Positions 8,310 through 45,640 of a stretch of DNA of 64,000 bases are shown one piece after another. The stretch's first letter is position 1, and every line of letters begins with the position of its first letter. This stretch comes from Thioalkalivibrio thiocyanodenitrificans ARhD 1 (GTDB lineage Bacteria; Pseudomonadota; Gammaproteobacteria; Ectothiorhodospirales; Ectothiorhodospiraceae). The notes beneath the pieces are model-generated. The model had not been told where the DNA came from. It did not search any database and saw nothing but the letters and a program-made list of their open reading frames with translations. The position numbers and the translations under genes are program-made. The stretch covers positions 1,003,583 to 1,067,582 of the forward strand of contig NZ_KB900536.1 in NCBI RefSeq assembly GCF_000378965.1. Direction: 5' to 3'.

Positions 8310-8386
8310 GTTTGTCCGTAGTCAGTTGTCAGTTCTGCCTTTAACAACGGACAACGGACAACGGACAACTGACAACGGACAAACTC
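8308..8386. repeat. Heptamer element, family A
   Basis: Left arm with TTTGTCCGTAGTCAGTTGTC and right arm with the reverse complement, including three CAACGGA units and CAACTGA. The outer GAGTTTGTCC / GGACAAACTC arms pair exactly. It occupies the whole gap between two convergent genes, and both stop codons fall at its edges (8307-8309 and 8385-8387). Confidence 0.9.
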
Positions 8387-14840: not shown

Positions 14841-14887
14841 TCCGTCACGGGAATCGCGAACACCTCCAAAGCATAGTCGAAAATGCT

Positions 14888-14944: not shown

Positions 14945-15834
14945 CGGGTGTTGGGAGAGGCCTTCAGCGCCATGATGCGCTGCTCCAGGGGCGGGTGGCT
15001 CATGAACAGCTTCTTGAGGCCCTGGCCCATGCCGCCGCGGATGCCAAAGGCGGCCAGTTGATCGGGCATCCGGGTGGGCTGATGCACGGCACGCAGACTC
15101 TCCAGCGCCGAGATCATCTTCTCCCGCCCGGCCAGGCGGGCGCCGCCGGCATCGGCGCGGAACTCCCGCTGGCGGGAGAACCACATGACGATGATGGACG
15201 CCAGGATGGCCAGGATGATCTCCGCCACGATGGTGGTGATCCAGAAGCCGGGGCCATGGCCGCGCTCGTTCTTGAATACCACCCGGTCCACGAAGTGGCC
15301 GATCACCCGGGCAATGAATATCACGAAGGTGTTCACCACACCCTGGATGAGCGCCAGGGTCACCATGTCGCCGTTGGCGACGTGACTCACCTCATGGCCG
15401 AGCACTGCCTCCACCTCGTCGGCGTTCATGCGCTCCATCAGTCCGGTGCTCACCGCAACCAGGGCGTTGTTCTTGCTCATGCCGGTGGCAAAGGCATTGG
15501 GATCCGGGGAATTGAAGACACCCACCTCCGGCATGCCGATACCCGCCTGCCGGGCCTGGCGCTGCACGGTTTCCAGCAGCCATTGTTCGGTGCTGTTGCG
15601 CGGTTTCTCGATGATATGCACCCGCATCGTCCGCTTGGCCATCCACTTGGAGATGGCCAGGGAGATAAAGGAGCCGCCGAAGCCGAACACGGCCGCGAAG
15701 ACCAGCAGGGCATTGAGATTCAGCCCGGTACCGGTCTCGTCCAGGATGCGCTCCACGCCCAGCAGGCGCAGGGTGATGCTCAGCACCACGATGATGGCCA
15801 GGTTGGTGGCCAGGAACAGGGCAACGCGCTTCAT
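14938..15834 (-). CDS. htpX: Membrane zinc metalloprotease HtpX
   Basis: 298 residues, the usual HtpX length. Two N-terminal membrane segments ([19 protein letters not shown] and [20 protein letters not shown]) are followed by the HExxH zinc site in [14 protein letters not shown]. Two more hydrophobic segments follow, and the third zinc ligand is probably Glu in [14 protein letters not shown]. It degrades damaged inner-membrane proteins with FtsH. The last codons CGT CAA TAG end at a family A element, so the C-terminal Gln may come from the repeat. Confidence 0.96.
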
Positions 15835-15915
15835 CGTCTCTCCGAATCGTAAGGCGTTCAGGACCTTGGGAACGTCGTATTAGATAGGGGCAAAGCCGAA
15901 AAATTCAACCTTGAA

Positions 15916-15982
15916 GGCTGTCCGTTGTCAGTGGTCCGTTGTCAGTTGTGAAAAAAACAACGGACCACTGACTACTGACCGC
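15916..15982. repeat. Heptamer element, family A, at the parC stop
   Basis: TGTCCGTTGTCAGTGGTCCGTTGTCAGTTGT, then AAAAAAA, then CAACGGACCACTGACTACTGACCG. A long imperfect hairpin with an A-rich loop. The right arm encodes the parC C-terminal Ser-Gly-Gln and TAG stop (15974-15972). Confidence 0.88.
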
Positions 15983-18221
15983 TCCTTAGAGCGTCCACCT
16001 TCTGGAACCCCCTCGGCAGCTTGCGGCCGCGCTTGCCGCGTTCGCCGGCGTATTCGTCCACCTCGGGGCCCTTCATGGTCTTGAACTTCCTGCCGGCCAC
16101 CACGGTGAGGGGCTCGCCGTCCTGAACCAGGGTGACGGCGGCGACCCATTCCGCCCGGGTTTTGAGCTTCGCCGAGGGGACGTTGATGATCTTGTTGCCC
16201 TTGCCGCGGGCCATGCGCGGCAGCTCGGCCAGCGGTGTCACCAGCAGGTGACCCTCGCTGGTGGCGGCGGCGATCCAGTCCTGCTCCGGGTCGCGCACCC
16301 GCACCGGCGGCAGCACCTTCGCCCCGGCGGGCACGCCCAGGACCGCCTTGCCCGCCTTGTTGCGGCTCTGCATGTCCTCCAGGGAGCAAACGAACCCGTA
16401 GCCGTAATCGGTGGCCAGCAGGAACAGGTCCGAGGGCGCTCCCATCATCACGCCCACGAAACGGGCTCCGTCGGGGGGCGTAAGGCGGCCGGACAGGGGT
16501 TCGCCCTGCCCCCGGGCCGAGGGCAGCGTGTGGGCCGGCAGGGTGTAGGTGCGGCCCGTGGAGTCGATGAATACGGCGGGCTGGTTGCTGCGCCCCCGGG
16601 CCACGGACTGGAAACCGTCGCCCGACTTGTAGTTCAGGGCATGGGCATCCACGTCATGCCCCTTGGCGGCACGCACCCAGCCCATCTTCGAGAGCACCAC
16701 CGTCAGCGGTTCGGTGGGAATGAGTTCGGACTCGTCCATGGCCTGGGCCGCGGCCCGCTCGACGATGGGAGATCGGCGGGCGTCGCCGAACTTCTCCGCG
16801 TCGGCCATGATCTCGTCGCGGATGAGGCGTTTCAGGCGCGCGGCGGAACCGAGTGTCTTCTGGAGCGTGTCACGTTCCTTCCCCAGTTCCTCCTGCTCGC
16901 CGCGGATCTTCATTTCCTCGAGTTTCGCCAGGTGACGGAGTTTCAGTTCGAGGATCGCCTCGGCCTGGACGTCCGTGAGTCCGAAGCGTTTCATGAGCAC
17001 GGGCTTCGGTTCGTCGTTCTCGCGGATGACGCGGATCACCTCGTCGATGTTGAGATAGGCGATCAGCAGGCCTTCCAGGACGTGCAGCCTCGCCAGCACC
17101 TTGTCCAGGCGCCACTGAAGGCGCCGGCGCACGGTCTCGGTGCGAAAGCCCAGCCACTCGCCGAGCAGGGTGGCCAGGTCCTTCACCCGGGGACGGCCGT
17201 CCAGGCCGATCAGATTCATGTTGATCCGGTAACTGCGTTCCAGATCCGTGGTGGCGAACAGGTGGGCCATGAGCGCCTCCACGTCCACCCGGCTGCTGCG
17301 CGGCTGGATGACCAGGCGGGTGGGATGTTCATGGTCCGACTCGTCGCGCAGGTCCTCCACCATGGGCAGCTTCTTCGCGTTCATCTGCGCTGCGATCTGC
17401 TCCAGCACCCTGGCGCCGGAGACCTGGTGGGGCAGCGCGGTGATGATGATGTCGCCGTTCTCGCGCTCGTAACGGGCGCGCATGCGAAGGGCGCCGTTAC
17501 CGGTCTCGTAGACCTTCCGCAGTTCCGCCCGCGGCGTGATGATCTCCGCCTCGGTGGGGAAATCCGGACCCTGGATGTGCTCACAGAGGTCCGCCACGGT
17601 GGCCTTCGGATTCTCCAGCAGATGCACGCAGGCGGCGGCCACCTCGCGCAGGTTGTGGGGCGGGATGTCGGTGGCCATGCCCACGGCGATGCCGGTGCCC
17701 CCGTTGAGCAGCACGTTGGGCAGGCGCGCGGGCAGCACCTTCGGCTCTTCCATTGTGCCGTCGAAGTTGAGCACCCAATCCACGGTGCCCTGCCCCAGCT
17801 CCGAGAGCAGCAGCTGCGCGTAGGGGGAGAGCCGCGACTCGGTGTAACGCATGGCGGCGAAGGACTTGGGATCGTCCGGCGAGCCCCAGTTGCCCTGCCC
17901 GTCCACGAAGGGATAGCGGTAGGAGAAAGGCTGGGCCATGAGCACCATGGCCTCGTAGCAGGCGGAATCCCCGTGGGGATGGAACTTGCCCAGCACATCG
18001 CCCACGGTGCGCGCCGACTTCTTGTACTTGGAGGCCGCCGACAGCCCCAGCTCGCTCATGGCGTAGATGATGCGCCGCTGCACGGGCTTGAGGCCGTCGC
18101 CGATATGCGGCAGCGCCCGGTCGAGGATCACGTACATGGAGTAATCCAGGTACGCCTTCTCGGTGAAGTCCTTGAGCGGCAGCCGCTCGGCGCCTTCCAG
18201 ATTCAGATCAAGACTGCTCAT
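15972..18221 (-). CDS. parC: DNA topoisomerase IV subunit A
   Basis: 749 residues from the ATG at 18221 ([19 protein letters not shown]). The winged-helix/tower core includes [29 protein letters not shown] and the catalytic Tyr in [14 protein letters not shown]. The C-terminal third is a beta-pinwheel of the ParC kind without a GyrA box. With ParE it decatenates replicated chromosomes. It lies near parE, separated by a HAD gene and two family D repeats. The final residues Ser-Gly-Gln and the TAG stop lie in a heptamer element. Confidence 0.96.
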
Positions 18222-30939: not shown

Positions 30940-31058
30940 TCAGTTGTCAGTTGTCAGTTGTCAGTTGTCAGTTGTCAGTTGTCAGTTGTCAGTTGTCAGG
31001 AGCCTGACTCCGGTAGAGGGCCTGTCAAAGGGGTTTCCAACAACTGACAACTGACTAA
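30921..31058. repeat. Heptamer element, family A, mobA/arxR boundary
   Basis: Eight or so GTCAGTT units on the left, beginning at the mobA TAG stop. A 52-base centre follows, then CAACTGACAACTGACTAATC on the right, carrying the arxR TAG stop. This is the last heptamer element before a 30-kb stretch without any. Confidence 0.92.
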
Positions 31059-32389
31059 TCCGACATTCCCAGACGCTTCATTCGTTCCCAGAGGTTCTTG
31101 CGGCTGATGCCCAGGTTGGCGGCGGTGTGCCCGATGTGGCCGTCATGCAGCTCCAGGGCGCGGCGGATGTAACTCTCCTCGCAGGTTTTCAGGTAATGGC
31201 TCAGGCGGCCGGCGTCCTGATACGCGCCCTGCGCCGGTTCCCGCGGTTCGTCGAAGAAGACCTCCGCCTGAAGCAGCGGGCCGGGGTTCAGGATCCAGGC
31301 CCGTTCAACGGCGTGCTTGAGCTCCCGGATGTTGCCGGGCCATGGATGACGCAGCAATGCCTGCTCGGCGGCGGCCGTCAATTGCTTGAGCGGCTCACCG
31401 CTTTCACGCGCATGCGCCTCCAGGAACTGCCGCACCAGCCAGGGAATGTCTTCGGGACGTTCCCGAAGGGGCGGGATGCGCAGGTGGATCACGTGGATGC
31501 GGTAGTAGAGATCCTCCCGGAACCTGCCATCCCTGACCATCTGCAACAGGTCCTGGTGGGTGGCGCATATCAGGCGCAGACGCACGGACACCGGGGCGTC
31601 GCCGCCGACGCGCACGATCTGTCGTTCCTGGATGGCGCGCAACAGCTTGACCTGCATCACCAGGGGCATGTCGCCGATCTCGTCCAGAAAGAGCGTGCCG
31701 CCGTCGGCCTGCTCGAACACCCCGGCACGAGAACGCACCGCGCCGGTGAATGCGCCCTTCTCATGACCGAAGAGTTCGGCCTCCAGAAGGGTTTCGGTGA
31801 GCCCGCCGCAGTTCACCGCCACGAAAGGCTGCGAGGCATTCTGCGCATCCAGCCGATGCAGTTCGCGCGCGACGGCCTCCTTGCCGACACCGGACTCGCC
31901 GGTGATCAGCACCGTGCCCGCCTGGGTCGCCAGTCGCGGCAAGAGGGCCTCCAGACGCCGCATGGCCGGTGAAACGCCCAGCCGGGCACCCTGCCCGCGG
32001 ACGGTATCGCCCGCCGGCACGATGAGCCCGTGGAGCTTTTCCACCAGGGCATCCAGGTCGAAGGGCTTGGTGATGTAATCGGCCGCGCCCCGTTTGAGCA
32101 GGGCCACCGCGCGGTCCACCGCGCCGTAGCCGGTAATGAACAGCCAGGGACAGGTCACGCTGCCCGCGGCCATCAACTCCTCGAACAGCGCATCACCGTC
32201 GCCGTCCGGCAGTCGGATGTCGCTGATCACCACGTCGTGGGCGTGGTCCGGCAAGACCGCGCGCGCCTCGGCCAGGTCTCGGCACCAGTCCACTTCAAAG
32301 CCCTCGAGTGCGAACCGGTCGCACAGGGACTCCCCCATGATGGGATCATCCTCGACAAGGCACAGCCGCGGATGCATCCCGCCGCTCAT
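31055..32389 (-). CDS. arxR: ArxR, sigma-54-dependent response regulator
   Basis: 444 residues. The receiver domain (residues about 8-120) has acidic pocket LVEDDP, phospho-Asp in VVISDIRLPDGDG and Lys in ITKPFD. The AAA+ domain has GESGVGKEAVAREL, the sigma-54 contact loop GAFTGAV, and LDEIGD. The C-terminal Fis-type helix-turn-helix is HIGHTAANLGISRKNLWERMKRLG. It would drive the sigma-54 promoter at 34,923 via the palindromes at 34,810 and 34,852. It overlaps the arxS stop, in the unit arxX-arxS-arxR. Confidence 0.88.
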   Translation of the reverse strand: MSGGMHPRLCLVEDDPIMGESLCDRFALEGFEVDWCRDLAEARAVLPDHAHDVVISDIRLPDGDGDALFEELMAAGSVTCPWLFITGYGAVDRAVALLKRGAADYITKPFDLDALVEKLHGLIVPAGDTVRGQGARLGVSPAMRRLEALLPRLATQAGTVLITGESGVGKEAVARELHRLDAQNASQPFVAVNCGGLTETLLEAELFGHEKGAFTGAVRSRAGVFEQADGGTLFLDEIGDMPLVMQVKLLRAIQERQIVRVGGDAPVSVRLRLICATHQDLLQMVRDGRFREDLYYRIHVIHLRIPPLRERPEDIPWLVRQFLEAHARESGEPLKQLTAAAEQALLRHPWPGNIRELKHAVERAWILNPGPLLQAEVFFDEPREPAQGAYQDAGRLSHYLKTCEESYIRRALELHDGHIGHTAANLGISRKNLWERMKRLGMSD

Positions 32390-33834
32390 GCGGCCTCCCA
32401 GACGCGCAGCGGCAGTGACACCCGGAATACGGTTCGCCCGTCACCGCTTTGCACCTCGATACGCCCTTCCATCTGCTGGACCAACTGGTAGGTGACCCAC
32501 AGGCCGAGGCCATGGCCCCGGCCCGGCGTCCCCGAGAACGGTTCAAACAGGCGGGTCATCTGCATGCGCGAGATGGGTTCTCCGTGATTGACCACCTCCA
32601 CATGCAGACCCTGTTCCCGGGGCCACAGGCGGCAGATCACCCGACCGCCCGGTTCACTCGCCTGCACGGCATTGAGCAGCAGGTTGAGCATGATCTGGCG
32701 CACCTGGGTGGAGGGGAGCGCGAGCGGTTCCCTGACGCGGCTGTCCCAGACCAGTTCCAGTGACTTGCCATGCGCGTCCGGCAGGATGAGGGTGTGGATG
32801 TCGTGGATGTCCTGTGGCGTGAGCGCATGGCTTTCCAGCCGTGCCTCCACGAGCAGCGCGCCCACCGTCTCCTTGATCTGTCGCAATCCCCGTTCCAGCA
32901 GCGATATGGTGCGCTCCGTGACCGCGTCCGGATCGCCATGGCGGCGATAGGTACTGACGGCGTTGAGCATGCCGCCGAGCGGGTTGTTGATCTCGTGGGC
33001 GATCCCCGCGGTCAGGCGCCCCACGGCCGCCAGGCGCTCGGACGCCATGACACCACGTTCCAGTTCCTGCTTCTGGCGCAGCTCGGCGAGCATGCGTTTC
33101 AACTGGGTACCCGCCTGGCCGATCTCGTCCCTGGATTCGTACAGGCGGCACTCGTCCTCGGAGGGGATCTCCGGGCCGACGCGCCCCATGCAGTCGGCCA
33201 GCTGCACCAGCGGTTCCGCCATGCGGCGGCCCCAGTACCAGGACAGCGGCAGGAGCAGGACCAGCACCAGCAGCGTGATCAGGCCCGCCCGCCAGACGAT
33301 ACTGAAGAACCGGGGCACGAACAGGGATTTGGGATATTCCAGGACGAGCATGCCCAGGTGCACACCGTCGAACACGATGGGCGCCACCATGAAGAAGTGG
33401 GTGGCTTCGGACAACTCGACGGCGCGGGGCCCCTTTTCCGCCCCCTCCTGCAATGCAGTATCCAGCCTGGCGTACTCCGGGCCCAGTCGCTCCAGCCCGA
33501 CGAGCATGGGGTAGTCCATGGGTTGCGTGGACACGTATATCCGCCTGTCCGGATCGAGCACCATGATGAGTTCGGCGCCCAGCGTGGACTGACCCGCCTG
33601 CAGCGGCGAGTTGATGGTCTCGTAAACGCGCCAGACATCATCGTGAATCATCGGTGTGACGAGGGTATTGGACAGGAGACGCCCCATGCTCTCGGCATTC
33701 TCGAACAGATCGCGACGCACCTGATCATACTCCCTTGCCAGGATCGCGCCGGTGATGAGCACGGCGGTAATGAGCACCAGCACCGTCGCGCGCAGGGGGA
33801 TCTTGTAGCGGAAACTGAGGTTGCGAAGGATCAT
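32386..33834 (-). CDS. arxS: ArxS, membrane sensor histidine kinase
   Basis: 482 residues. Membrane segments at about 17-35 (LRATVLVLITAVLITGAIL) and 181-200 (GLITLLVLVLLLPLSWYWG) frame a periplasmic sensor. A HAMP-like linker follows, then the H-box GIAHEINNPLGGML with the phosphoacceptor His. The ATPase shows a MLNLLLNAVQASEPGG N-box and GRGHGLGLWVTYQLVQ. Partner of ArxR, and probably of the periplasmic protein ArxX encoded three bases upstream. In the known arx systems this trio senses arsenite. Confidence 0.85.
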   Translation of the reverse strand: MILRNLSFRYKIPLRATVLVLITAVLITGAILAREYDQVRRDLFENAESMGRLLSNTLVTPMIHDDVWRVYETINSPLQAGQSTLGAELIMVLDPDRRIYVSTQPMDYPMLVGLERLGPEYARLDTALQEGAEKGPRAVELSEATHFFMVAPIVFDGVHLGMLVLEYPKSLFVPRFFSIVWRAGLITLLVLVLLLPLSWYWGRRMAEPLVQLADCMGRVGPEIPSEDECRLYESRDEIGQAGTQLKRMLAELRQKQELERGVMASERLAAVGRLTAGIAHEINNPLGGMLNAVSTYRRHGDPDAVTERTISLLERGLRQIKETVGALLVEARLESHALTPQDIHDIHTLILPDAHGKSLELVWDSRVREPLALPSTQVRQIMLNLLLNAVQASEPGGRVICRLWPREQGLHVEVVNHGEPISRMQMTRLFEPFSGTPGRGHGLGLWVTYQLVQQMEGRIEVQSGDGRTVFRVSLPLRVWEAA

Positions 33835-33837
33835 GGT

Positions 33838-34689
33838 TTACAGGCGTCCCGTCGCACGGGCCATGTGCGCGATCTCGTCATAAAGCCGGGCGGTGCCCGA
33901 CACGAAACCGTCGAGGTTGAGTTTCTCCAGGAGGCGGGTCCCCGTCTCGTCCCGGCCCATGTCCATCAGCACGGATTGCACCGCGTCGAACTCGGCCTGC
34001 GACAGTGAGGCGGCGGCCACGAACGGCGGAAATCCGAATTGCCCGGACTGCTTGACCACCCGTGTCTGCCCGGTGATCTCCGGATGGAGCCGTTCCAGGG
34101 TATCCCAGACGTAACCGTCCACCGCCCCTCCGTTGGCCATGCCCACGGCCACGGCCTCCACCACCCGCCGATGGGACCAGGTGAAGAACGTCCTGCGGAA
34201 GAAGCGCTCGGGCACGCTACCGCGCTGATGCAGCTGATAGAGGGTGTACAGGTAGCCGGAATTGGAATTGGGATCCGAGAAGGCGAATATCTGATTGTCC
34301 AGGTCATCCAGCGATGCGGATATCCGGTCGATGGCGGGCACGATGAAGTAGGAGCGGTACAGGGGCTGCCCGTGGTACAGAGGCACCGCCAGCAAGCGCA
34401 TTCGGCTCAACTGCTGGACGTAGGGGTAGCCGCAGACCCAGGCGATGTCCACGCCGCCCATCACCACCTGCTCGATGATCTCCCGGTAGCTGGCCCGTTG
34501 CACGAAGGCCACCGGGCGTCCCAACCGCACCGCCAGGTAATGCCGCCAGTCGTTAAGGAAGGCCGCCTGGTCATCCAGAAACACCGGGGTCAGGCCGATA
34601 CGCAACGGGGGCGCACCGGCGACGGCGCCGCCCGCCAGGGCACCCGCCATTCCGGCAGCCAGTCCCCGCAATAGAGTTCTTCGCTTCAT
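33838..34689 (-). CDS. arxX: ArxX, periplasmic phosphate/phosphonate-type binding protein
   Basis: 283 residues from MKRRTLLRGLAAG at 34689. The upstream frame is open but would bury the signal. The N-terminus has a twin-arginine/Sec-like signal (AAGMAGALAGGAVAGA). The PhnD-like fold runs from LRIGLTPVFLDDQAAFLNDW through AWVCGYPYV and FSDPNSNSGYLYTLYQL. Proteins of this family beside two-component systems bind oxyanions and signal to the kinase. In arx loci the candidate ligand is arsenite. First gene of arxXSR, divergent from the oxidase operon. Confidence 0.83.
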   Translation of the reverse strand: MKRRTLLRGLAAGMAGALAGGAVAGAPPLRIGLTPVFLDDQAAFLNDWRHYLAVRLGRPVAFVQRASYREIIEQVVMGGVDIAWVCGYPYVQQLSRMRLLAVPLYHGQPLYRSYFIVPAIDRISASLDDLDNQIFAFSDPNSNSGYLYTLYQLHQRGSVPERFFRRTFFTWSHRRVVEAVAVGMANGGAVDGYVWDTLERLHPEITGQTRVVKQSGQFGFPPFVAAASLSQAEFDAVQSVLMDMGRDETGTRLLEKLNLDGFVSGTARLYDEIAHMARATGRL

Positions 34690-34800
34690 GGGCAACGCAC
34701 CGGGGCCTGATTGACCGAAGGCCCGACTGTTCAGTTTAGGCACGGCAGTCATCGGGACGACATGAGGCCGATCAATAAACCGGTCCGTCGCGATCCGGTA

Positions 34801-34834
34801 CCGCCGGGTGTTACCCATGGGTAACACCCGGCGG
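34801..34834. promoter_or_regulatory. ArxR site 1: perfect 34-bp palindrome with core GTTACC-N4-GGTAAC
   Basis: The two 17-base halves are exact reverse complements. The core is GTTACC CATG GGTAAC at 34,810-34,825. Centre at 34,817.5, about 132 bases upstream of the inferred start of transcription. Confidence 0.7.
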
Positions 34835-34851
34835 CTGAGAACGGCCGGCAG

Positions 34852-34867
34852 GTTACCGGTGGGTAAC
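34852..34867. promoter_or_regulatory. ArxR site 2: GTTACC-N4-GGTAAC
   Basis: The core is GTTACC GGTG GGTAAC. Its centre at 34,859.5 is 42 bases from site 1, about four helical turns, so the two sites face the same side of DNA. Confidence 0.7.
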
Positions 34868-34922
34868 CCCCTCAAGGGGGCATATGTTTTCCAACCCCAT
34901 GTTTATCGGCGTTTTCCTGTAT

Positions 34923-34937
34923 TGGCACACCCCGTGC
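34923..34937 (+). promoter_or_regulatory. Sigma-54 (-24/-12) promoter of the arx operon
   Basis: TGGCAC-ACCCC-GTGC, close to the consensus TGGCAC-N5-TTGC, with the GG and GC pairs exactly 12 bases apart. Transcription should begin near 34,949, about 85 bases before the arxB2 ATG at 35,034. This also argues against longer arxB2 starts. Confidence 0.72.
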
Positions 34938-35033
34938 AGGGTATTCAGTCAACACGTTGCATGCCAGATCCGGGTGCCCCGGCACAGAGGACAAGGCGGC
35001 GACCGATGCACACTGAATAAGGACGCCAGGACC

Positions 35034-36275
35034 ATGGCGATCACCGCCAAAGTCAGCGCTGTTTCATCGCTTGCGCGTCTCTCCCCGCACGGGGGACCGT
35101 GGGCAGACCAGTCTGCCTGCCTTGGCCTGCGCTTCCCCGGCACCGGATGCCGCGCATGCGAAAGCGCCTGTCCGGCATCCGTGTTGAAGGTGACAACCGG
35201 GGGACTCGAACTGGCCGACGGTTGCATCCGGTGCGGACGCTGCGCCGCGGTCTGCCCCACCCATGCCCTGTCAGTCCCCGGTTTTCAGACCTCTGCCCCT
35301 GACGACGGGCGGGACGCATTGATGGTCGACTGCGCGAAGGTACCCGGTGCCGGGGAGTTTCCCGGCGAGTTGCGCGTCCCCTGCCTCGGGGGCCTCAGCC
35401 GCAGCCGCCTCCTCGCCCTGGTGAAGGCAAGGCCGGAGCGTCCCGTGGTGCTCATGGATCGCGGCTGGTGCACGGACTGCGCTGCCGGGGGCTGCCGCTC
35501 TCCGGCCATGGAACAGGTCGCGGAGGTCAACCGCTGGCTGGCCGCCATGGGGGTGCCCGAACACCGGCACATTCGCCATCAATCCCGCCCCCTGCCCCTT
35601 TCCCGCATGCCGCCGGAGATTCCCGACCCGGCCATGGCCCGGCCCATGGACCGCCGGGGCTTCCTGCGCCAGCTGGCGGGCCAGGTGGCGGTGGCCGCCC
35701 AGGGCGGCGATCCGGCGCACGACCGGGTGGGCGATCCGGTCGACCCGGACGGTTCCATGCGAATCCATCCGGCGGAACGCGCTGCCATCCTGGCGCAACT
35801 GAAGGACATGTCCCCCAACGGCCGGCGGACCCTGCCCCCCGACCTGTTCACGATGGTGGAGATCGACGCCGATCGCTGCCATCACCACGGTGTATGCGCG
35901 ACAACCTGTCCCACCGGGGCGTTGCGTGTCTGGACGAACGGTGACGAGTGCGGCACCCGGTTCGACCCGGTCACCTGCACAGGCTGCGGCGAGTGCGAAC
36001 GCAACTGTCCGCAACAGGCGCTCCGGCTGCGGCGACCCGAAACCGTCACCACGCCCGTACGGCCGCACATCCTGAGCCGTCATGACACGCGTGTCTGCGT
36101 CCGATGCCACACACGTTTCGTTGCCCGGGGGCTCGTACCGGACGACACGGACCTGCCCGTATGTCCCGCTTGCGAAAGATCCAACGGATTGATGGCGTCC
36201 ACGTTCGAACGCCACTTTGGCCGATCGCAGCACCCGGCCGACCGACAACCACCCCAGGAGAGAGAAAGCATATGA
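35034..36275 (+). CDS. arxB2: ArxB2, polyferredoxin-type iron-sulfur protein
   Basis: 413 residues from the ATG at 35,034, downstream of the sigma-54 promoter. The N-terminal part has CRACESACP and CIRCGRCAAVCP (4Fe-4S pairs), then a Cys-rich CTDCAAGGC. Near residue 205 an internal RRGFLRQLAGQVAVAA resembles a twin-arginine signal. A second ferredoxin module follows (CHHHGVCATTCP and CTGCGECERNCP), and a C-terminal CVRC...CPAC pair suggests a zinc ribbon. The layout looks like a NapF-like module joined to a second module. It starts the arx operon and its TGA overlaps the arxA ATG. Presumed electron carrier or assembly factor. Confidence 0.82.
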   Translation: MAITAKVSAVSSLARLSPHGGPWADQSACLGLRFPGTGCRACESACPASVLKVTTGGLELADGCIRCGRCAAVCPTHALSVPGFQTSAPDDGRDALMVDCAKVPGAGEFPGELRVPCLGGLSRSRLLALVKARPERPVVLMDRGWCTDCAAGGCRSPAMEQVAEVNRWLAAMGVPEHRHIRHQSRPLPLSRMPPEIPDPAMARPMDRRGFLRQLAGQVAVAAQGGDPAHDRVGDPVDPDGSMRIHPAERAAILAQLKDMSPNGRRTLPPDLFTMVEIDADRCHHHGVCATTCPTGALRVWTNGDECGTRFDPVTCTGCGECERNCPQQALRLRRPETVTTPVRPHILSRHDTRVCVRCHTRFVARGLVPDDTDLPVCPACERSNGLMASTFERHFGRSQHPADRQPPQERESI

Positions 36276-38764
36276 ATGTCTTGAAGGCACTCATGACCCG
36301 TCGCCGCTTCCTGAAGGTCAGCGGCACCGTGGGCGTCGCCGGCGCAGCCGCGGCTAAACTCACCGGATTCACCGCCGCAGCCACGGCATCCGCACCCGCC
36401 GGAGCCACGATCCGCGGCGAGACCACGGTGACCAAGAACATCTGCGCACAGTGTCCGGCACGCTGCGGCATCGACGTGTACACCACCAACGGCCGCGTAC
36501 ATGCCATCTACGGCGACAAGGGCAACCCCATCGCCAACGGAAAGCTCTGCCCCAAGGGACATCTGGGCACGTACTTTCTGTACGACCCGGACCGCTTCCG
36601 GGGCCCCATGAAGCGCACCAACCCGCGCAAGGGGCGCAACGAGGATCCGGGGTTCGTGCCAATCTCCTGGGACGAGGCACTGGACACGGTGGCCGCGCGC
36701 ATCAACCGGCTGCGCGAGAACGGCGAGGCACACCGGTTCGCCCACTTCTACGGGCGCGGCTGGGGTTCCTCGGATGCCGGCCTCTATGGGGATTTCGGCA
36801 AACTGATCGGCACCCCCAACTCGGCCATCGGTCATGCCTCCATGTGCGCGGAAGGGTCCAAGCGCGCAAAGCAGGCTACCGACGGCAACAACTCCTATAA
36901 CGCCTACGATTACAGGAACACGAACTATATCCTGTGCTTCGGCGCTTCCTTCCTGGAGGCATTCCGGCCCTACAACTATCTGATGCAGGTGTGGGGATAC
37001 ATGCGCAGCAAGAGTCCGATGACGCGCGTCACCGCCATCGACGTGCGCATGAACCCGACCCTCGCGGCGGCCGATCGCGCCCTGATGGTCAAGCCCGGAA
37101 CGGACGGCGCCCTGGCCCTGGCCATCGCCCATGTCATGCTCACCGAAGGACTCTGGGACAGGGATTTCGTTGGCGACTTCCACGACGGCCGCAACCGCTT
37201 CCGTGCCGGCCAGCGCATTGCCCCGGGAAGCTTTGAGGAGAAGTGGACCCAGGGACTGATCGGCTGGTGGAACGATGAAGTCAAGGACCGTACGCCGAGC
37301 TGGGCCGAGAGCGTCACCGGCGTCCCTGCGCGACAGATCGTCACCGTTGCCCGGGAGTTCGGCACCACCCGGCCGGCCATGGCGATCATGGAGCGCGGCC
37401 CCACGGCGCATACCAATGGCGTGTACAACGGAATGGCCATTCACGCCCTGAATGCCCTGTCCGGCGCGATGTTCGCCGAAGGCGGTCTGTTCTACCAGAT
37501 GGGCTCCCCGTACGGACCGCTTCCCGCCAACTCGGACGACCACATGGATGACATCGCCCGGGAAATGCGCGGTAAGCATCCGCGCATCGACATGGCGCGC
37601 ACGGATCGCTGGCCCATGTCCGGGACCATGATGCAGGAGGTTGCCCGCAACCATGTGAACGGGGACCCCTACAAGCTGGACACGGCCATGTTCTTCTACA
37701 CGAACCCCGTGTGGACGGCACCCGACACCAGCCACTGGGAAACGATGCTGAGCGAGATCTTCGTGATCGACACCTCGCCGTTCCCGGGCGAAACGGCCAT
37801 GTTCGCCGACCTGGTGCTCCCAGATCACACCTACCTGGAGCGCCTACAGGACGCACCCACCTATCCCTTCGAGGGCTGGCCCATGGCCGCCCTGCGGGTG
37901 CCGGCCGTCGATCCGATCTACGACACCAAGCACTTCGGCGACACGCTGATCGAGATCGGCAAGCGCATCAACGGGCCCACTGCGGAGTTCTACCGCAGGC
38001 TGGACAATGTGGAGAACTGCCTGCGCCATCGGGCCGAGGGTTTCCGCGACAACCCCGGCGACAACGGCGTGATGGACTTCGAGACATGGAAGGAGAAAGG
38101 CGTCTGGTACAGGAAGCCCTATCACTGGCGGCAGGTGCGCGGCGAGTTCTACGAGTGGGACGGCGAGGGTTACAACCGCCGGATGACGCCCGAGGAAGTC
38201 AGGGACAAACTGCTCAGAACGCCCTCCGGCCGATTCGAGCTGAAAGCCTCGTTCCTGGAGGCCCACGCGGACTACATCAACAGCCGGCTCGGCGTACCCC
38301 ACGAACGGGTCGGATACCCCCAGTGGATCGAGCCGCGCCATACCGGCGGTGATCGCGATCTGCATTTCGTCACACCCAAGACCCCGCTGACCGCCGAGGG
38401 CCGCAGCGGCAACATTCCGCACGCCACCGCCTTGCAGCAGCCCTCGGTAGGCGGGCGGCGGACCGTGTACATGGAGATCCATCCGAAGACGGCGCGGGAA
38501 CGCGGCATCCGCAACGGCGACCTGGTGAGGGTCACCTCCGATCTGGGATCGATCCACGCGTATTGCCGCTTCACCGCTTCCAATCGCCCGGACACGGTGG
38601 TGCTCCCCTATGAGCACGGCCACTGGGCACAGGGGCGCTGGGCCACGGCCCAGGAGCGCAGCACACACCCCGGAAATCCAAGCGAAATCACCGCGAACGT
38701 CTCGGATCCCATCTCCGGTCTTGCCTGCTATTACACCGGCAAAGTCACCGTCGAACGGGCCTGA
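36272..38764 (+). CDS. arxA: ArxA, anaerobic arsenite oxidase catalytic subunit
   Basis: 830 residues, of the molybdopterin (DMSO reductase) family. A Tat signal (TRRRFLKVSG, residues 9-18) exports it folded. The 4Fe-4S motif is C58-x2-C61-x3-C65-x27-C93, the spacing of ArxA/ArrA. Central blocks include GRGWGSSDAGLYGDFG, DYRNTNYILCFGASFLEAFRP and TRVTAIDVRMNPTLAAADR; the C-terminal cofactor domain runs from about residue 700. It oxidises arsenite to arsenate in the periplasm. It belongs to the Arr/Arx clade, but the operon (arxB2ABCD with arxXSR) favours Arx; dissimilatory arsenate reductase is the alternative. Confidence 0.85.
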   Translation: MNVLKALMTRRRFLKVSGTVGVAGAAAAKLTGFTAAATASAPAGATIRGETTVTKNICAQCPARCGIDVYTTNGRVHAIYGDKGNPIANGKLCPKGHLGTYFLYDPDRFRGPMKRTNPRKGRNEDPGFVPISWDEALDTVAARINRLRENGEAHRFAHFYGRGWGSSDAGLYGDFGKLIGTPNSAIGHASMCAEGSKRAKQATDGNNSYNAYDYRNTNYILCFGASFLEAFRPYNYLMQVWGYMRSKSPMTRVTAIDVRMNPTLAAADRALMVKPGTDGALALAIAHVMLTEGLWDRDFVGDFHDGRNRFRAGQRIAPGSFEEKWTQGLIGWWNDEVKDRTPSWAESVTGVPARQIVTVAREFGTTRPAMAIMERGPTAHTNGVYNGMAIHALNALSGAMFAEGGLFYQMGSPYGPLPANSDDHMDDIAREMRGKHPRIDMARTDRWPMSGTMMQEVARNHVNGDPYKLDTAMFFYTNPVWTAPDTSHWETMLSEIFVIDTSPFPGETAMFADLVLPDHTYLERLQDAPTYPFEGWPMAALRVPAVDPIYDTKHFGDTLIEIGKRINGPTAEFYRRLDNVENCLRHRAEGFRDNPGDNGVMDFETWKEKGVWYRKPYHWRQVRGEFYEWDGEGYNRRMTPEEVRDKLLRTPSGRFELKASFLEAHADYINSRLGVPHERVGYPQWIEPRHTGGDRDLHFVTPKTPLTAEGRSGNIPHATALQQPSVGGRRTVYMEIHPKTARERGIRNGDLVRVTSDLGSIHAYCRFTASNRPDTVVLPYEHGHWAQGRWATAQERSTHPGNPSEITANVSDPISGLACYYTGKVTVERA

Positions 38765-38791: not shown

Positions 38792-39544
38792 ATGGCAAAG
38801 TGGGGAATGGTCATCGACCTGGACAAGTGCACCGGATGCCAGGCCTGCACCACGGCCTGCGGCATGGAGAACAACACCCTGCCCGGTGAAAACTGGCAGG
38901 ACGTGCTGTACTACAACGAAGGCGAGTACCCGAGCGCGCAGATGAAGTGGCTGCCGAGGCCATGCATGCAGTGCGAGAATCCCTCCTGCGTACACGTCTG
39001 CCCGACCCGGGCCACCTACAAGGACGAAGCGGCCGGGGGCATCGTGTTCGTGGACTGGAACAAGTGCATCGGCTGCAAGTACTGCATGATCGCCTGCCCG
39101 TACGGTGTGCGCTTCTATACCGACGAGCGGCCGCTGCTTGAGCCCAACATCAAGGACGTGTTCCCGGGCGCAGACGGACAGCAGTGGAGTCCGCCGTACC
39201 AGAACCCGAACGTCGACTGGCGCCGTGGCATCGGCATCCAGCCAAAGGGCGTGGTCTCCAAGTGCACCTTCTGCTACCACAAGGTGAGCCAGGCACCGGC
39301 CGGCACGCCAGACCTGGACGAGGATGATCCCGAACTGGTGGAGTACGTGCCCGCCTGCGTACGCACCTGCCCGCCCAAGGCACGCTACTTCGGCGATCTG
39401 GACAACCCGGCCTCCAACGTGAACAAGCTCATTGCCGATCGCAAGGGGGTACGCCTTCTGGACCACACGGGCAACAGGCCGCAGGTCTACTACCTGGGCA
39501 CCGGAGCCGGCATCCCGACCTTCCGGCCCGCCCCCAAGGCATAA
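38792..39544 (+). CDS. arxB: ArxB, four-cluster ferredoxin subunit
   Basis: 250 residues with four 4Fe-4S motifs: CTGCQACTTAC near residue 13, CMQCENPSCVHVC, CIGCKYCMIAC, and a split fourth motif CTFCYHK...CVRTCP. This is the PsrB/DmsB type of electron-transfer subunit. It has no signal peptide, so it would be exported with ArxA on the Tat signal. It passes electrons from the Mo site of ArxA to the membrane quinone protein ArxC. It follows arxA by 27 bases with GAGAGGA as ribosome site. Confidence 0.88.
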   Translation: MAKWGMVIDLDKCTGCQACTTACGMENNTLPGENWQDVLYYNEGEYPSAQMKWLPRPCMQCENPSCVHVCPTRATYKDEAAGGIVFVDWNKCIGCKYCMIACPYGVRFYTDERPLLEPNIKDVFPGADGQQWSPPYQNPNVDWRRGIGIQPKGVVSKCTFCYHKVSQAPAGTPDLDEDDPELVEYVPACVRTCPPKARYFGDLDNPASNVNKLIADRKGVRLLDHTGNRPQVYYLGTGAGIPTFRPAPKA

Positions 39545-39574: not shown

Positions 39575-40747
39575 ATGAGCGCACGCGCAGAAAGCGTCTT
39601 GCCGGAGCAGCAATCCGGCAGCCTGCCGATCGGGATCATCATTACCGGCCTGATACTGGTCGGGGTCGGTCTGATCGGCCTACTCAATCTATTCGCCCAG
39701 GGGCACGCCGCCTTCAACGTCGGCAGTGACGGCGTGGTCTGGGGCCTGCCGATCATTGCCTATCTTTTCCTGGCGCTCTCGTCGACAGGCTTGGCAATGG
39801 TGGCCTCGCTGGCGCTGGTGTTCGGGATGAAGGACTTCTATCCCATCGCCAAACGCAGTCTGTGGCTGGCCATCGGTCTGCTGATCGGTGCCTTTGTCAC
39901 CCTGGCCTTTGAGCTGGGCCACCCCTTTCGCATGCTCTGGGCCATGCCCCTGAACTTGCAGGTAACCTCCCCCATGTTCTGGATGGGCGTCTGGTATGCG
40001 GTCGCCCTGGTGTTCATGGTGCTCAAGTGCACCTCACTGCAAAGAGGCGACTGGACAAGCCAACGCAGCCGCTCAATCGGCGTCATTACCCTGGCCGCAG
40101 AGATCGCCGCCGCCGGGACCCTCGGCCTGGTATTCGGCATGATGGCCATGCGTCCCTTCTGGTACGGATCGTTCGTGCCGCTTTACTTCCTCGCCACGGC
40201 AGCGCTGTCGGGCATCGCCTTCGCGACACTGTTCACCTACATCGCCCACGGCCTGGACACTTCGCGCATGGGAGCGCAACTCAAGGGCCTCATGGAGCGC
40301 CATCTCCCCAACACATTCGCACTGGTGCTGGGCGTGGTGCTGGTTTTCCATGTCGGCCGCGTCATTACTGGGCTTTGGAGCAACAATCCCGAGATCAGCA
40401 TGGTGATGTGGCATCAGGCAGGCACCTGGATGTTCCATGTGGAGTTGTGGCTGGGCATGGCACTGCCCCTGGTGCTGCTGCTCACGCCTTCCCTGCGGTC
40501 ACGTCCCGGCGTGCAGGTGCTGAGCGCGATCCTGGTACTGATCGCCATGTTCATCAGCCGCTACCTGTACGTCACCGGAGGGCAGATCGTTCCCCTCTGG
40601 AAGGGCACGTGGATGCCAGACTTCATCGCCTACACGCCTTCATTCACCGAATGGTCCCTGATGTTCCTGGGCGTCGGAGTCGGACTGCTGATCTACGCCT
40701 ACGGTTCGTGGAAGCTCAGCCTGAATGCGCAGCCGACAGGCGCCTGA
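39575..40747 (+). CDS. arxC: ArxC, NrfD/PsrC-type membrane anchor
   Basis: 390 residues with nine or ten membrane segments (GIIITGLILVGVGLIGLLNLF, IIAYLFLALSSTGLAMVASLALVFG, AIGLLIGAFVTLAFELGHPFRML and others), typical of the NrfD family. It anchors ArxAB and exchanges electrons with quinone. The ATG at 39575 follows GAGGAG. A GC-rich hairpin lies downstream, before arxD. Confidence 0.87.
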   Translation: MSARAESVLPEQQSGSLPIGIIITGLILVGVGLIGLLNLFAQGHAAFNVGSDGVVWGLPIIAYLFLALSSTGLAMVASLALVFGMKDFYPIAKRSLWLAIGLLIGAFVTLAFELGHPFRMLWAMPLNLQVTSPMFWMGVWYAVALVFMVLKCTSLQRGDWTSQRSRSIGVITLAAEIAAAGTLGLVFGMMAMRPFWYGSFVPLYFLATAALSGIAFATLFTYIAHGLDTSRMGAQLKGLMERHLPNTFALVLGVVLVFHVGRVITGLWSNNPEISMVMWHQAGTWMFHVELWLGMALPLVLLLTPSLRSRPGVQVLSAILVLIAMFISRYLYVTGGQIVPLWKGTWMPDFIAYTPSFTEWSLMFLGVGVGLLIYAYGSWKLSLNAQPTGA

Positions 40748-41778: not shown

Positions 41779-41820
41779 GTCCGGGTAACCGGCGGACCGC
41801 ACCCGCAAGGGGGGTTGATC

Positions 41821-42318
41821 ATGAACATGCCACCCACGATCTCCAGGGGACACCGGGTCACGGTGAAATGCCGAGTCCGCGACCATGACACCGGCGCCCC
41901 GCTGGGTGAAGAGTCCGGGCTCCCCGGTGAATCCTCCTTCACCTACCTGCACGGATTCGAGGACAGTGCCATCCCGGGGCTGTCCCGGGCACTGCAAGGG
42001 GCGGCCGAGGGATTCTCGGGCGAGGTCACCATTCCCCCGGTGCTGGCCTTCGGTGCATACCGGCCGGAGCTGGTGTTCGAGGCCATGCGCGAGAACCTGC
42101 CCGCCGACACTCCGCTGACACCCGGGAAACCCCTGTACACCTGCAGTGACCAGGGCGCCTTTCAATTGCGCGTCGTACGGCTCACCGACCGGGGTGCCGT
42201 GCTCGACGGCAATCACCCCCTGGCGGGTCGAACCTTGCGGGTAAACGTGGAGGTCGTATCCGTGCGTCAGGCCACCGCCGAGGAGATTGCGCGGGGCACA
42301 ACCGCACCCGCCCACTGA
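41821..42318 (+). CDS. FKBP-type peptidyl-prolyl isomerase, SlyD/SlpA-like
   Basis: 165 residues; AAGGGGGG precedes the ATG at 41821. The FKBP half has SRGHRVTVKCRVRDHDTGAPL and the IPGLSRALQGAAEGF motif; the insert-in-flap domain lies in the middle, and the C-terminal strand is GNHPLAGRTLRVNVEVVSV. It catalyses proline isomerisation. No metal-binding His tail like SlyD is seen. It follows arxD by 42 bases in the same direction, so it may help fold the arx proteins. That link is inferred from position only. Confidence 0.8.
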   Translation: MNMPPTISRGHRVTVKCRVRDHDTGAPLGEESGLPGESSFTYLHGFEDSAIPGLSRALQGAAEGFSGEVTIPPVLAFGAYRPELVFEAMRENLPADTPLTPGKPLYTCSDQGAFQLRVVRLTDRGAVLDGNHPLAGRTLRVNVEVVSVRQATAEEIARGTTAPAH

Positions 42319-42511: not shown

Positions 42512-43342
42512 TCATCCTGACACGCGCTCCGGCACCAGCAGCACCAGCCGGCGCGCGCCGTGACACACCGCCTCTGCGGTACTGCCCAGCAGCAGGTCGG
42601 TCATGGGATTGTGGCCGCGCCGGCCGATAATGATGAGGTCCGCATCCTTCTCTTCCGCCACCCGTGCGATCTGCTCGGCGGGCCTGCCCTTGCCAAGCAG
42701 TACCGTCTCGAACCCGTCGGCCGGTGCCTGCTCGCCCAATGCAGCCACATGGGCTTCAACACGGCGATGCTGGTCCTCGAATTCCGGTCGGCCTTCCCAT
42801 CGACCCACGGACACGACCACCCCGGGCTCACACTGGCGCAGCAGTCTCAGGAACACGGCCTCGGCACCGGCGGCTGCGGCGGAACCGTCGGTGGCCAGCA
42901 GGGGGCGACACACCGCCTTCTCCGGCAACACGGCGGTCTCGTCCGTGGGCGCCAGCAGCAGGGGGCGCTCGATCCGGCGGGCCAGGTCGAGAACGGTGCT
43001 GCCCAGCAGGAGATCCCTCAGCGTGCTGTGGCCGTGGCTTCCGGCCAGGATGACGCCGGCCTCCCGCTCCCGGGCCACGCGTCCCAGTTCAGCGGCCACC
43101 AGCCCGACACACACTTCGGTGTCGACCTGAAAACCCCGTGCCCGAAGCGAATCCGCGACTTTGCCAAGCCGTTGCTCGTAATGCGTGCGATGGCTCACCT
43201 CCGGCGCCTGGGTGTAACCGGAGGCGATCACGTGTACCAGTGTCAGCCGGTGGCAGCCCAGGGCCTTCACACGCTCCAACTGTGCCTCCAGGCGCTGCCA
43301 GGCGGGAGAGAAATCCACGGCCACCAGGATATGCTCAAACAT
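42512..43342 (-). CDS. Tandem-domain universal stress protein (UspA family)
   Basis: 276 residues holding two UspA folds. Domain 1 (residues 1-135) begins MFEHILVAVDFSPA and has GSHGHSTLRDLLLGST. Domain 2 has LLATDGSAAAAGAEA and the nucleotide loop GRRGHNPMTDLLLGSTAEAV. Both retain G-2x-G-9x-G(S/T) loops, so ATP binding is likely. It lies 27 bases beyond the CC/Se-motif gene and is probably the last gene of the ars operon. A second UspA-like tandem protein is encoded at 49671-50504. Confidence 0.87.
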   Translation of the reverse strand: MFEHILVAVDFSPAWQRLEAQLERVKALGCHRLTLVHVIASGYTQAPEVSHRTHYEQRLGKVADSLRARGFQVDTEVCVGLVAAELGRVAREREAGVILAGSHGHSTLRDLLLGSTVLDLARRIERPLLLAPTDETAVLPEKAVCRPLLATDGSAAAAGAEAVFLRLLRQCEPGVVVSVGRWEGRPEFEDQHRRVEAHVAALGEQAPADGFETVLLGKGRPAEQIARVAEEKDADLIIIGRRGHNPMTDLLLGSTAEAVCHGARRLVLLVPERVSG

Positions 43343-43369
43343 GTGTGACTCCCGATTCCCGGATGCGAT

Positions 43370-43669
43370 TCATGGCCTGTTCGTCCAGCGATCCACCGCG
43401 CCTTCCACCGTCAGGCGGTGCAGGGACAGGAAACCCTCCAGGTCGATTCGGCAGGATCCGTCGTGCAGTCCACGTTCCACATGCACGCATACACCGTCCA
43501 CCTCCTGCGCAGCGTACCTTTTGCGGCTGCGGGGCGCACCCGCCTCGGCCACCGGCACCGCTGCGTGACCTCCGCAGCAGCCATGGCGCGGTGAGCCGCG
43601 CAGCGTCACTTCACCACCCCGGTCCAGCAGCCAGTCCCGCGCCGGGGCGCTGAGGCTGATCGCGTTCAC
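43370..43669 (-). CDS. CC/Se-motif family small protein
   Basis: 99 residues from a GTG at 43669 that overlaps the acr3 stop (GTGA). The N-terminal part resembles a HesB-like beta fold. The marker is GSPRHGCCGGHAAVPVAE near residue 30, with the adjacent Cys-Cys. In relatives one of these positions can be selenocysteine; here both are ordinary TGC/TGT codons. A third Cys is in VCVHVERG. The coupling to acr3 suggests a role with arsenic or redox handling. The activity is not known. Confidence 0.75.
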   Translation of the reverse strand: MNAISLSAPARDWLLDRGGEVTLRGSPRHGCCGGHAAVPVAEAGAPRSRKRYAAQEVDGVCVHVERGLHDGSCRIDLEGFLSLHRLTVEGAVDRWTNRP

Positions 43670-44754
43670 GCGGGATGCGGCGCCTCCTGCGCCGGGAACC
43701 AGTGCCGGGTGCGGTTGGCGATGCGCACCAGGGCCAGCATCAGCGGCACCTCCACCAGCACACCCACCACCGTGGCGAGCGCCGCCCCGGACTGCAGTCC
43801 GAACATGGCGATCGCCGCCGCCACGGCCAGCTCGAAGAAGTTGCTGGCGCCGATCATGGCACCGGGCGCCGCCACCGCGTGGCGCACCTTCCACGCCTTC
43901 GCCCAGCGATAGGCGATGTAGAAGATCAGGAACGTCTGGATGGTGAGCGGCACCGCGATCAGCAGGATGTGGAACGGGTTGTTCAGGATGGTCTCGCCCT
44001 GGAACGCGAACAGCAGCACGAGCGTGATCAGCAACCCGATGGGCGTCACCGGCGCCAGGCGCTTCATGAACACGTTGTCGAACCACTCGATGCCCTTGCG
44101 CCGGATGAGCAGAACCCGCGTGAGATAGCCGGCCGAGAACGGGATGACGATGTAGAGCAGCACGGACAGCGCCACCGTCTCCCAGGGCACGACAATGTTG
44201 GACACCCCCAGCAGCAACACGACGATGGGCGCGAAGGCCACGAGCATGATGAGATCGTTCACCGCCACCTGCACCAGCGTGTACGCGGCGTCCCCCCGGG
44301 TGAGGTAGCTCCACACGAACACCATGGCGGTGCAGGGCGCCGCGCCCAGCAGGATGGCGCCGGCCAGGTACTCGCGGCCCAGGTCCTCGGGGATCCACGG
44401 TGCGAACACCACCAGGAGGAAAAACCAGGCGAGGGCGAACATGGTGAAGGGCTTGATCAGCCAGTTGACCGTGGTGGTGACGCCGAGCCCCTTGGGCTCA
44501 CGGCGTACCCCCAGTATGGCGGAGAAGTCGATCTGCACCATCATGGGATAGATCATGGCCCAGATGAGGATCGCCACCGGGATCGACACCGAGGCGTATT
44601 CCCAGCGCGCCAGCGTTTCCGGGACCACGGGCAGCCACTGGCCGAGGGCCACACCGGCGATGATGCACAGGGCCACCCACACGGTCAGGTAGCGCTCGAA
44701 GAAGCCCATGCCCTCGCTGACGGGCACCGTATCGCTGGAAGCATTCCGATTCAC
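43666..44754 (-). CDS. acr3: Arsenite efflux permease, ACR3 family
   Basis: 362 residues with about ten membrane segments. The ACR3 signature APCTAMVFVWSYLTRGD contains the conserved membrane Cys needed for As(III) transport. It starts with a short polar tail (RNASSDTVPVSEGMGFFERY). It expels arsenite using the proton gradient, including that made by ArsC. Downstream of arsC by 34 bases and overlapping the CC/Se gene, in an arsR-arsC-acr3 operon. Having it beside arx fits a cell that handles high arsenite. Confidence 0.94.
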   Translation of the reverse strand: MNRNASSDTVPVSEGMGFFERYLTVWVALCIIAGVALGQWLPVVPETLARWEYASVSIPVAILIWAMIYPMMVQIDFSAILGVRREPKGLGVTTTVNWLIKPFTMFALAWFFLLVVFAPWIPEDLGREYLAGAILLGAAPCTAMVFVWSYLTRGDAAYTLVQVAVNDLIMLVAFAPIVVLLLGVSNIVVPWETVALSVLLYIVIPFSAGYLTRVLLIRRKGIEWFDNVFMKRLAPVTPIGLLITLVLLFAFQGETILNNPFHILLIAVPLTIQTFLIFYIAYRWAKAWKVRHAVAAPGAMIGASNFFELAVAAAIAMFGLQSGAALATVVGVLVEVPLMLALVRIANRTRHWFPAQEAPHPA

Positions 44755-44788
44755 GAACGGCCCCGACCCTTGCTATGCCATGGACTGC

Positions 44789-45268
44789 TCATGCGCCAGG
44801 CCCGCCGATACGGTCCAGTTCCGATAGCAGACGTTGCGGATCCCGTTCGAGCTCATCCAGGGACAGTGCCAGCAGGGCCTCGATGCACCGGCGCAGGATC
44901 CGGTAAGCCTGCTCGAAGGCCGCCTCGATCTCGGCCTCGCTGCCCGTAGCCCTGGCGGGATCCTCCACCCCCCAGTGGGCACGAATAGCCGATCCCAGAT
45001 ACGCGGGGCAGCTCTCGCCGGCGGCACTGGCGCACACGGTGATGACCACGTCGGGGGGCTCGGGGAGGTTGTCCCAGGACTTGCTGTGCAGGCCTTCGGT
45101 GGAGATGCCCTCCCGTTGCAGCAGGGCCAGGCTGCGCGGATGGACGAATCCGGTCGGCTTGCTGCCGGCGCTCATGGCCCGCCAGCCCGGCGGCGCCAGG
45201 TGGTTGAACACCGCTTCGGCGAGGATGGAACGGCAGGAGTTGCCGGTGCACAGGATCAGGATGTTCAT
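44789..45268 (-). CDS. arsC: Arsenate reductase, thioredoxin-linked (LMW-phosphatase type)
   Basis: 159 residues. The P-loop is ILCTGNSCRSILAEA with catalytic Cys near residue 7. The second and third redox cysteines are in VITVCASAAGESCP, and Asp in the last loop is VEDPARATGS. This is the ArsC type that shuttles a disulfide to thioredoxin. It reduces arsenate to arsenite for export by ACR3. Three bases after arsR, so coexpressed. Confidence 0.92.
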   Translation of the reverse strand: MNILILCTGNSCRSILAEAVFNHLAPPGWRAMSAGSKPTGFVHPRSLALLQREGISTEGLHSKSWDNLPEPPDVVITVCASAAGESCPAYLGSAIRAHWGVEDPARATGSEAEIEAAFEQAYRILRRCIEALLALSLDELERDPQRLLSELDRIGGPGA

Positions 45269-45271
45269 GGT

Positions 45272-45640
45272 TCAGGGCTCGCGGCGGGTGGCAGGCAGAT
45301 CGGAGTCGGCGTCGACGCATCCGGAGAGGGCGGAGACATTCACGCACAGCTCCGGGTGCCCGGCGCAGCACTCCTCCGTGAGATAGGCGATCAGCTCGGC
45401 CATCAGGGGAATGTTGGCCCGGTAGCGCTGGTAGCGGCCCTCCTGGGTCACCGACAGCAGGCCCGCGCGGGTCAGGGTCTTGAGATGGAAGGAGAGATTG
45501 GTGGGCGGCAGGTCCAGGGCGGCCGATATGTCGCCCGCCACCATGCCCTCCGGTCCTCGTCGCACCAGCAGCCGGTAGACGTCCAGCCGCACCGGCGAGG
45601 ACAGGGATTCGAACATCCCGATGGCTGTTGTCTGATCCAT
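45272..45640 (-). CDS. arsR: ArsR family arsenite-responsive repressor
   Basis: 122 residues. The winged helix runs from LSSPVRLDVYRLLVRRGPEG to HLKTLTRAGLLSVTQEGRYQRYRAN. The classical ELCVCDL metal site in helix 3 is absent. A C-terminal ECCAGHPELCVNVSALSGC cluster offers three or four Cys instead, resembling the off-centre arsenite site known in the Acidithiobacillus ferrooxidans ArsR. It represses its own operon until arsenite binds. A perfect operator lies just upstream. Confidence 0.92.
   Translation of the reverse strand: MDQTTAIGMFESLSSPVRLDVYRLLVRRGPEGMVAGDISAALDLPPTNLSFHLKTLTRAGLLSVTQEGRYQRYRANIPLMAELIAYLTEECCAGHPELCVNVSALSGCVDADSDLPATRREP

Follow-up and report, generated by a model that had tools for sequence, protein, structure and literature searches.

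Paired palindromes and a -24/-12 promoter box in a probable ArxR control region of the arx operon of Thioalkalivibrio thiocyanodenitrificans ARhD 1

Introduction

Sigma-54 enhancers of the NtrC type are composed of paired dyads located upstream of a -24/-12 promoter, and their regulators combine a receiver, an AAA+ domain with the GAFTGA motif and a Fis domain. In general the half-site, the signal and the target of these enhancers differ from those of the ArxR module described here.

The closest described system is that of AioR. In 12 aio operons accompanied by aioXSR, and not in others, Li 2013 reported a pair of palindromes together with a -24/-12 box (PMC3834237). Like the arx sites described below, the AioR sites of aioBA consist of two palindromes lying 100-200 nt above the first structural gene and followed by a -24/-12 box; they are tied to the XSR module, being absent without it, and share the dyad form GTT-N10-AAC. 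AioR is also, like ArxR, an NtrC-type regulator associated with a periplasmic protein X and a kinase S. Its binding to the cognate dyad was demonstrated by EMSA and DNase I footprinting on GTTCGGATTTCCGAAC, of the GTTCGG form, in Agrobacterium GW4 (Shi 2017, PMC5335332). The locus studied here differs by its target, the arx operon, and by its half-site, GTTACC and not the GTTCGG form of Agrobacterium GW4.

For arx itself, Badilla 2018 predicted an RpoN promoter and a single ArxR site in Alkalilimnicola ehrlichii MLHE-1 (PMC5908839). The idea is the same, i.e. ArxR and RpoN upstream of arx, but the MLHE-1 site is one 14-base sequence, gtaacaattcaagc, proposed by homology to NT-26, whereas we describe a twin 16-bp dyad with a consensus drawn from 26 loci. 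Two MLHE-1 strings given in that paper have no match among the 93 loci that we compared. As of 2019, a part for ArxR in the regulation of arx was described as undemonstrated (PMC6683785, PMC6549141). The arx module is the counterpart of the published AioR twin sites and is not wholly new, the idea having been partly anticipated in 2018 (PMC5908839). What goes beyond these twin sites is a split in which the operator follows the regulator, and the existence of loop-less Rhodobacterales regulators, with no box found in the four readable promoters; a literature search covering few subscription papers returned no description of a twin arx operator or of loop-less AioR proteins.

Results

Genes of the locus

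The window, i.e. the whole stretch of 64,000 nucleotides analysed, contains two divergent gene sets, named after the published arx order (PMC6683785, PMC6549141) and, except where stated, recognised by Pfam. On the plus strand the controlled operon opens with arxB2 (iron-sulphur protein, 35034-36275), followed by arxA (the molybdopterin subunit of arsenite oxidase, 36104-38764, with its start somewhere in 36104-36270), arxB (iron-sulphur subunit, 38792-39544) and arxC (NrfD-like membrane subunit, 39575-40747). The best NCBIfam model for ArxA is ArrA, with 447 bits, far under the cut-off of 1600; this is expected since the two are sister clades. On the minus strand lie arxX (a PhnD/AioX-type periplasmic binding protein, 33838-34689), arxS (sensor histidine kinase, 32386-33834) and arxR (response regulator, 31055-32389).

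ArxR has the domains of an NtrC-type activator: a receiver (PF00072), an AAA+ sigma-54 domain (PF00158, Sigma54_activat) and a Fis-type HTH (PF02954) with the sequence SRKNLWERM. Its AAA+ domain has the Walker A motif GESGVGK and the GAFTGA loop, so that the sigma-54 contact loop announced by the first-pass annotation is indeed there.

Two groups of neighbours were noted in passing. A small FKBP-like protein (Pfam FKBP_C just under its cut-off) adjoins the arx genes at 41815-42318, as another does in Thioalkalivibrio halophilus HL17 (locus L020, 6649-7119); such proteins are possible accessories of the arx system. Beside the arx operon, at 42512-45640 on the minus strand, we recognised by eye an ArsR, an ArsC-like phosphatase, an Acr3-like transporter and a universal stress protein.

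Two palindromic sites precede arxB2

The sequence GTTACC-N4-GGTAAC had been noticed twice in this region from the letters alone, and the motif scan recovers both copies, as palindromes without assigned strand: the predicted distal ArxR operator GTTACCCATGGGTAAC at 34810-34825 and the predicted proximal one GTTACCGGTGGGTAAC at 34852-34867, 42 bp apart. The two sites fit the 16-bp dyad form GTT-N10-AAC, and they lie between arxX, which starts at 34689, 121 bp away, and arxB2, which starts at 35034. Relative to the latter ATG the dyads begin at -224 and -182, the distal one being slightly beyond 200.

These are the only two exact GTTACC-N4-GGTAAC copies of the 3.75-Mb genome, in which a reversed control pattern has no exact match. 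When two mismatches are allowed the window contains 4 matches for 0.61 expected, a number reached in 1 of 100 dinucleotide shuffles. With up to three mismatches, no GTTCGG half-site of the alpha-type AioR operator (GTTCGG-N4-CCGAAC) was found in the arxX-arxB2 intergenic region of the window.

The sites are confined to arx loci with arxXSR

The first-pass annotation had proposed to look for the dyads upstream of arxB2 in other arx loci. A protein scan of genomes gave 19 arx loci and further genome searches added more; after removal of duplicates (L042, L046 and L047, identical to L009, L003 and L020) the set comprised 33 loci, window included. Four are cut before a readable promoter (L004, L014, L015 and L045, with an end too near or inside the operon), 25 carry arxX, arxS and arxR, three lack them (L043, L044 and L054), and in L011 the dyad pair is present and the contig ends before a possible arxXSR, which is why it is left out of the 25.

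The dyads are conserved. In all 25 arx loci where arxXSR is present and the upstream DNA can be read, a site with at most one mismatch precedes arxB2. In 24 of them two sites form a pair, at a distance of 28-46 bp and with no more than four mismatches summed; the exception, L058, has two sites 182 bp apart. Over the 1.7 kb upstream of arxB2 or arxA, the loci without arxXSR (0/3) show no site even when three mismatches are allowed; they have no pair anywhere in their 19 kb, and their genomes encode no ArxX detectable at E 1e-20. The dyads are thus present only with the XSR module.

Controls give low backgrounds. Shuffling the 33 loci (589 kb) in 200-bp blocks yields 0.1 pair per set, and 52 of the 63 sites with at most one mismatch in the arx loci fall inside arx promoter regions. 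Among arx-negative relatives an exact site occurs in 3 of 34 genomes, once in each and never paired. Where a genome has both arx and arxXSR (18 genomes), an exact site lies in the arx locus in 13 cases and only elsewhere in one (G012), the other four having variants only; G251, with arx and no ArxX, has one exact site, on a different contig. In L039 an additional exact site lies inside arxX, where several relatives show weaker likenesses; we take it as a coding coincidence.

A dyad alone names no protein, and here the sites stand between two divergent genes; they could therefore be operators of another regulator (a repressor, or an anaerobic or arsenic regulator unlinked to arxXSR) acting on arxB2 or arxX. 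The distribution described above, 25/25 against 0/3, makes this improbable. It is further disfavoured by L008, L010 and L018, where arxXSR lies downstream of the operon: the sites stay at arxB2 and none is found near the separate arxX.

Only two pairs were found outside arx promoters in the 33 loci, at 7283/7326 in L020 and at 14809/14851 in L056. The first (7283-7341, 43 bp apart) precedes a gene of the metallo-beta-lactamase fold (7476-8468), a relative of SoxH-like proteins inserted between arxX and arxB2. The second (14809-14866, 42 bp apart) precedes a second molybdoenzyme of the DMSO-reductase family (15084-17666), a few kb below the arx operon. Both genes are possible further ArxR targets; no clear -24/-12 box was seen at either pair, judging from the four best boxes in L020 and by eye in L056.

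A -24/-12 box faces arxB2

A box TGGCAC-N5-GTGC facing arxB2 had also been pointed out, and it is found as TGGCACACCCCGTGCA at 34923-34938 on the plus strand, its first base 71 bp downstream of that of the proximal operator. If C34937 is position -12, the transcription start should lie near 34949 on the same strand, 12 bases downstream of the -12 GC. The palindrome centres then stand about 90 and about 132 bp above the start, in agreement with the earlier estimate. A search for sigma-70 promoters over 34000-36000 found none.

In the other loci the box is also frequent: 21 of the 25 have one scoring at least 17 within 130 bp downstream of the proximal site, for a background of 0.31 per kb per strand at this threshold. 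Among the remaining four, L040 and L041 have weak boxes (15.0 and 16.5 respectively) and L056, which has two candidate targets, and L057 have the dyads but no good box within 130 bp.

In the opposite orientation the result is uniform. A box of at least 17 facing arxX within 0-300 bp occurs in none of the 25 loci (0/25), and a sigma-54 promoter for arxX is rejected. This count also speaks against another regulator acting through the dyads. The dyads could in addition control arxX, ArxR repressing or activating its own operon, which is compatible with the control of arxB2: they lie close above the arxX start in the window, and the arxX and arxB2 operons are divergent in 22/25 loci. We consider such autoregulation rather unlikely, given that no sigma-54 box faces arxX, that no site accompanies arxX where it is separate, and that aioXSR of NT-26 is reported to be constitutive (PMC6011840).

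The arxB2 start proposed in the first-pass annotation, ATG 35034, is supported by the positions of the alternatives and by the closest relative, L007. The in-frame ATGs 34884 and 34899 precede the inferred transcription start, the remaining in-frame GTG 34974 corresponds to a cysteine position in L007, and L007 has an upstream in-frame stop; for these reasons we retain ATG 35034.

Spacing and helical phase

Paired sites of the beta/gamma loci are mostly 42-45 bp apart (21 of 29 spacings); six spacings are 31-33 bp, and two are 64 bp with an intervening site. The -24 element follows the proximal site at discrete distances (58-60, 69-71, 80-82, 92-93, 104 and 111), which step by about one helical turn.

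With one distance per lineage group (15 groups) the phase concentration is R = 0.85 for a period of 10.9 bp, the distances and the groups having been assigned by hand and five distances coming from weaker boxes. None of 5000 uniform draws in which the period was left free attained this value, and 1 of 20000 did so in a repeat. The first run omitted L056 and L057; inclusion of the outlier L057 in the repeat did no harm (R = 0.71, 0/20000). Addition of four beta plasmid groups gives R = 0.73 (0/20000), and the eight alpha loci alone give R = 0.86 (47/20000).

The conserved element is the 16-bp core

Around the distal operator extends a perfect palindrome of 34 bp (34801-34834, no strand), as had been remarked. 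The palindrome is perfect here, but it is not the conserved element. In 52 sites with at most one mismatch, from 26 loci, the information ends at the 16-bp core and the flanks hold at most 0.35 bits per position. The set was picked by similarity to the motif, so that the information of the 12 core positions is inflated, while the flanks were not selected in this way. The extended palindrome was accordingly rejected as recognition element, and since conservation is confined to the 16-bp core, the 34-bp palindrome is peculiar to this locus, its outer arms being unconserved except in close relatives.

That a perfect palindrome of 34 bp far exceeds the conserved core could mean that it is a structural element (a terminator, a cruciform or an RNA hairpin) with a secondary resemblance to a binding site. 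This is very improbable: the palindrome lies above the inferred transcription start and is not followed by a T run, no terminator-like site was called at it, and its outer arms are unconserved in the 52 sites.

Near-perfect long palindromes were seen elsewhere in L007 (16/17 pairs) and at one site of L008, at -276 (16/17), compared with 17/17 in the window. Very long near-perfect palindromes around single operator cores are thus observed in two lineages, with outer arms that carry no conserved sequence.

Proposed mechanism

The conservation of the dyads, of their pairing and of the box in other arx loci supports the earlier reading of the region as an ArxR control module. Further support comes from aio, where AioR was footprinted on its dyad, and from the Rhodobacterales regulators without GAFTGA, whose readable promoters have no box (see below). 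The comparison of sequences establishes the two sites, the fact that they are paired, phased and restricted to arx loci with arxXSR, the box and the ArxR domains. We take the module to be real and very probably functional: 34801-34949 would be the region that controls the arxB2-A-B-C-(D) operon, driven by arsenite through ArxXSR and sigma-54 (probability about 0.88).

Periplasmic ArxX would bind arsenite and the signal would pass via the kinase ArxS to ArxR. Dimers of phosphorylated ArxR would then occupy both 16-bp dyads, which lie four turns apart on one face of the helix, and ArxR would assemble its AAA+ ring there. The GAFTGA loop would open the sigma-54 RNA polymerase waiting at TGGCAC-N5-GTGC, and the arx operon would be transcribed from near 34949, with translation from ATG 35034.

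The operator, defined precisely and conserved in its pairing and phase, is a target for footprinting. Its consensus lets genome scans find more ArxR targets, and the control region would provide a ready-made promoter part responsive to arsenite.

Operator form and regulator lineage in arx and aio

We compared 20 plasmid loci that encode a relative of AioX or ArxX; L080 (Methylorubrum), with no ArxR match, was dropped, which leaves 6 beta and 13 alpha loci. GTTACC-type sites with at most two mismatches are present in all six beta loci, before aio in four of them. The 13 alpha loci all carry GTTCGG-N4-CCGAAC with at most one mismatch, including Cereibacter azotoformans where the target is arxB2, and none has a GTTACC-type site with up to two mismatches in the scanned regions (in L092, the IS3 side only). 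The long L055 region shows one GTTCGG-like match, with two mismatches.

The recognition helix of the regulator changes in parallel: it reads R-K-N/S/T in 30/30 readable beta/gamma regulators and R-T-T in 12/12 alpha ones, being unreadable in L005 (contig end) and L090 (split reading frame). Thus the half-site and the XSR regulator's recognition helix vary together, in aio and arx alike, which is a further argument against operators of an unlinked regulator. The R-K-x and R-T-T residues presumably set the operator specificity. The GTTACC/GTTCGG split coincides with a single deep branch and may therefore represent one change.

The single AioR motif published by Shi 2017 has mixed letters at the same positions (PMC5335332). 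This ambiguous motif, GT[TC][AC][CG]..., reads as a mixture of the GTTACC and GTTCGG forms.

Rhodobacterales regulators without the sigma-54 loop

The AioR/ArxR of five Rhodobacterales loci (L078, L083, L088, L091 and L092) have no GAFTGA loop at all (5/5). Their palindromes are kept in all five, that of L092 lying above an IS3 element. No box of at least 17 was found in the four readable promoters (best 14.5); that of L092 was not judged, the IS3 separating the palindrome from aioB. GAFTGA or a variant (GAFSGA, GSFSGA) is present in 14/14 of the other plasmid loci, and so is the box (14/14). The losses of the loop and of the box are confined to one order and possibly represent one event.

The NtrC of Rhodobacter capsulatus, which has lost GAFTGA and works with sigma-70 (as cited in PMC10274813), lacks the same loop; in the Rhodobacterales AioR/ArxR, by comparison, signal and targets concern arsenite oxidation.

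Taken jointly, these comparisons make it fairly likely that there are two operator dialects, set by regulator lineage and not by enzyme: R-K-x with GTTACC-N4-GGTAAC in beta/gamma, for arx and aio, and R-T-T with GTTCGG-N4-CCGAAC in alpha, for aio and the Cereibacter arx. On the same account the Rhodobacterales regulators would have left sigma-54, the GAFTGA loop and the -24/-12 box being lost together and the palindromes kept. The regulator-operator split and the joint loss of loop and box offer a natural experiment on DNA specificity and on the change of sigma factor in such activators.

As a last observation, the IS3 element of L092 (10018-11353), between an AioR-type palindrome and aioB, is in Pseudosulfitobacter pseudonitzschiae H46.
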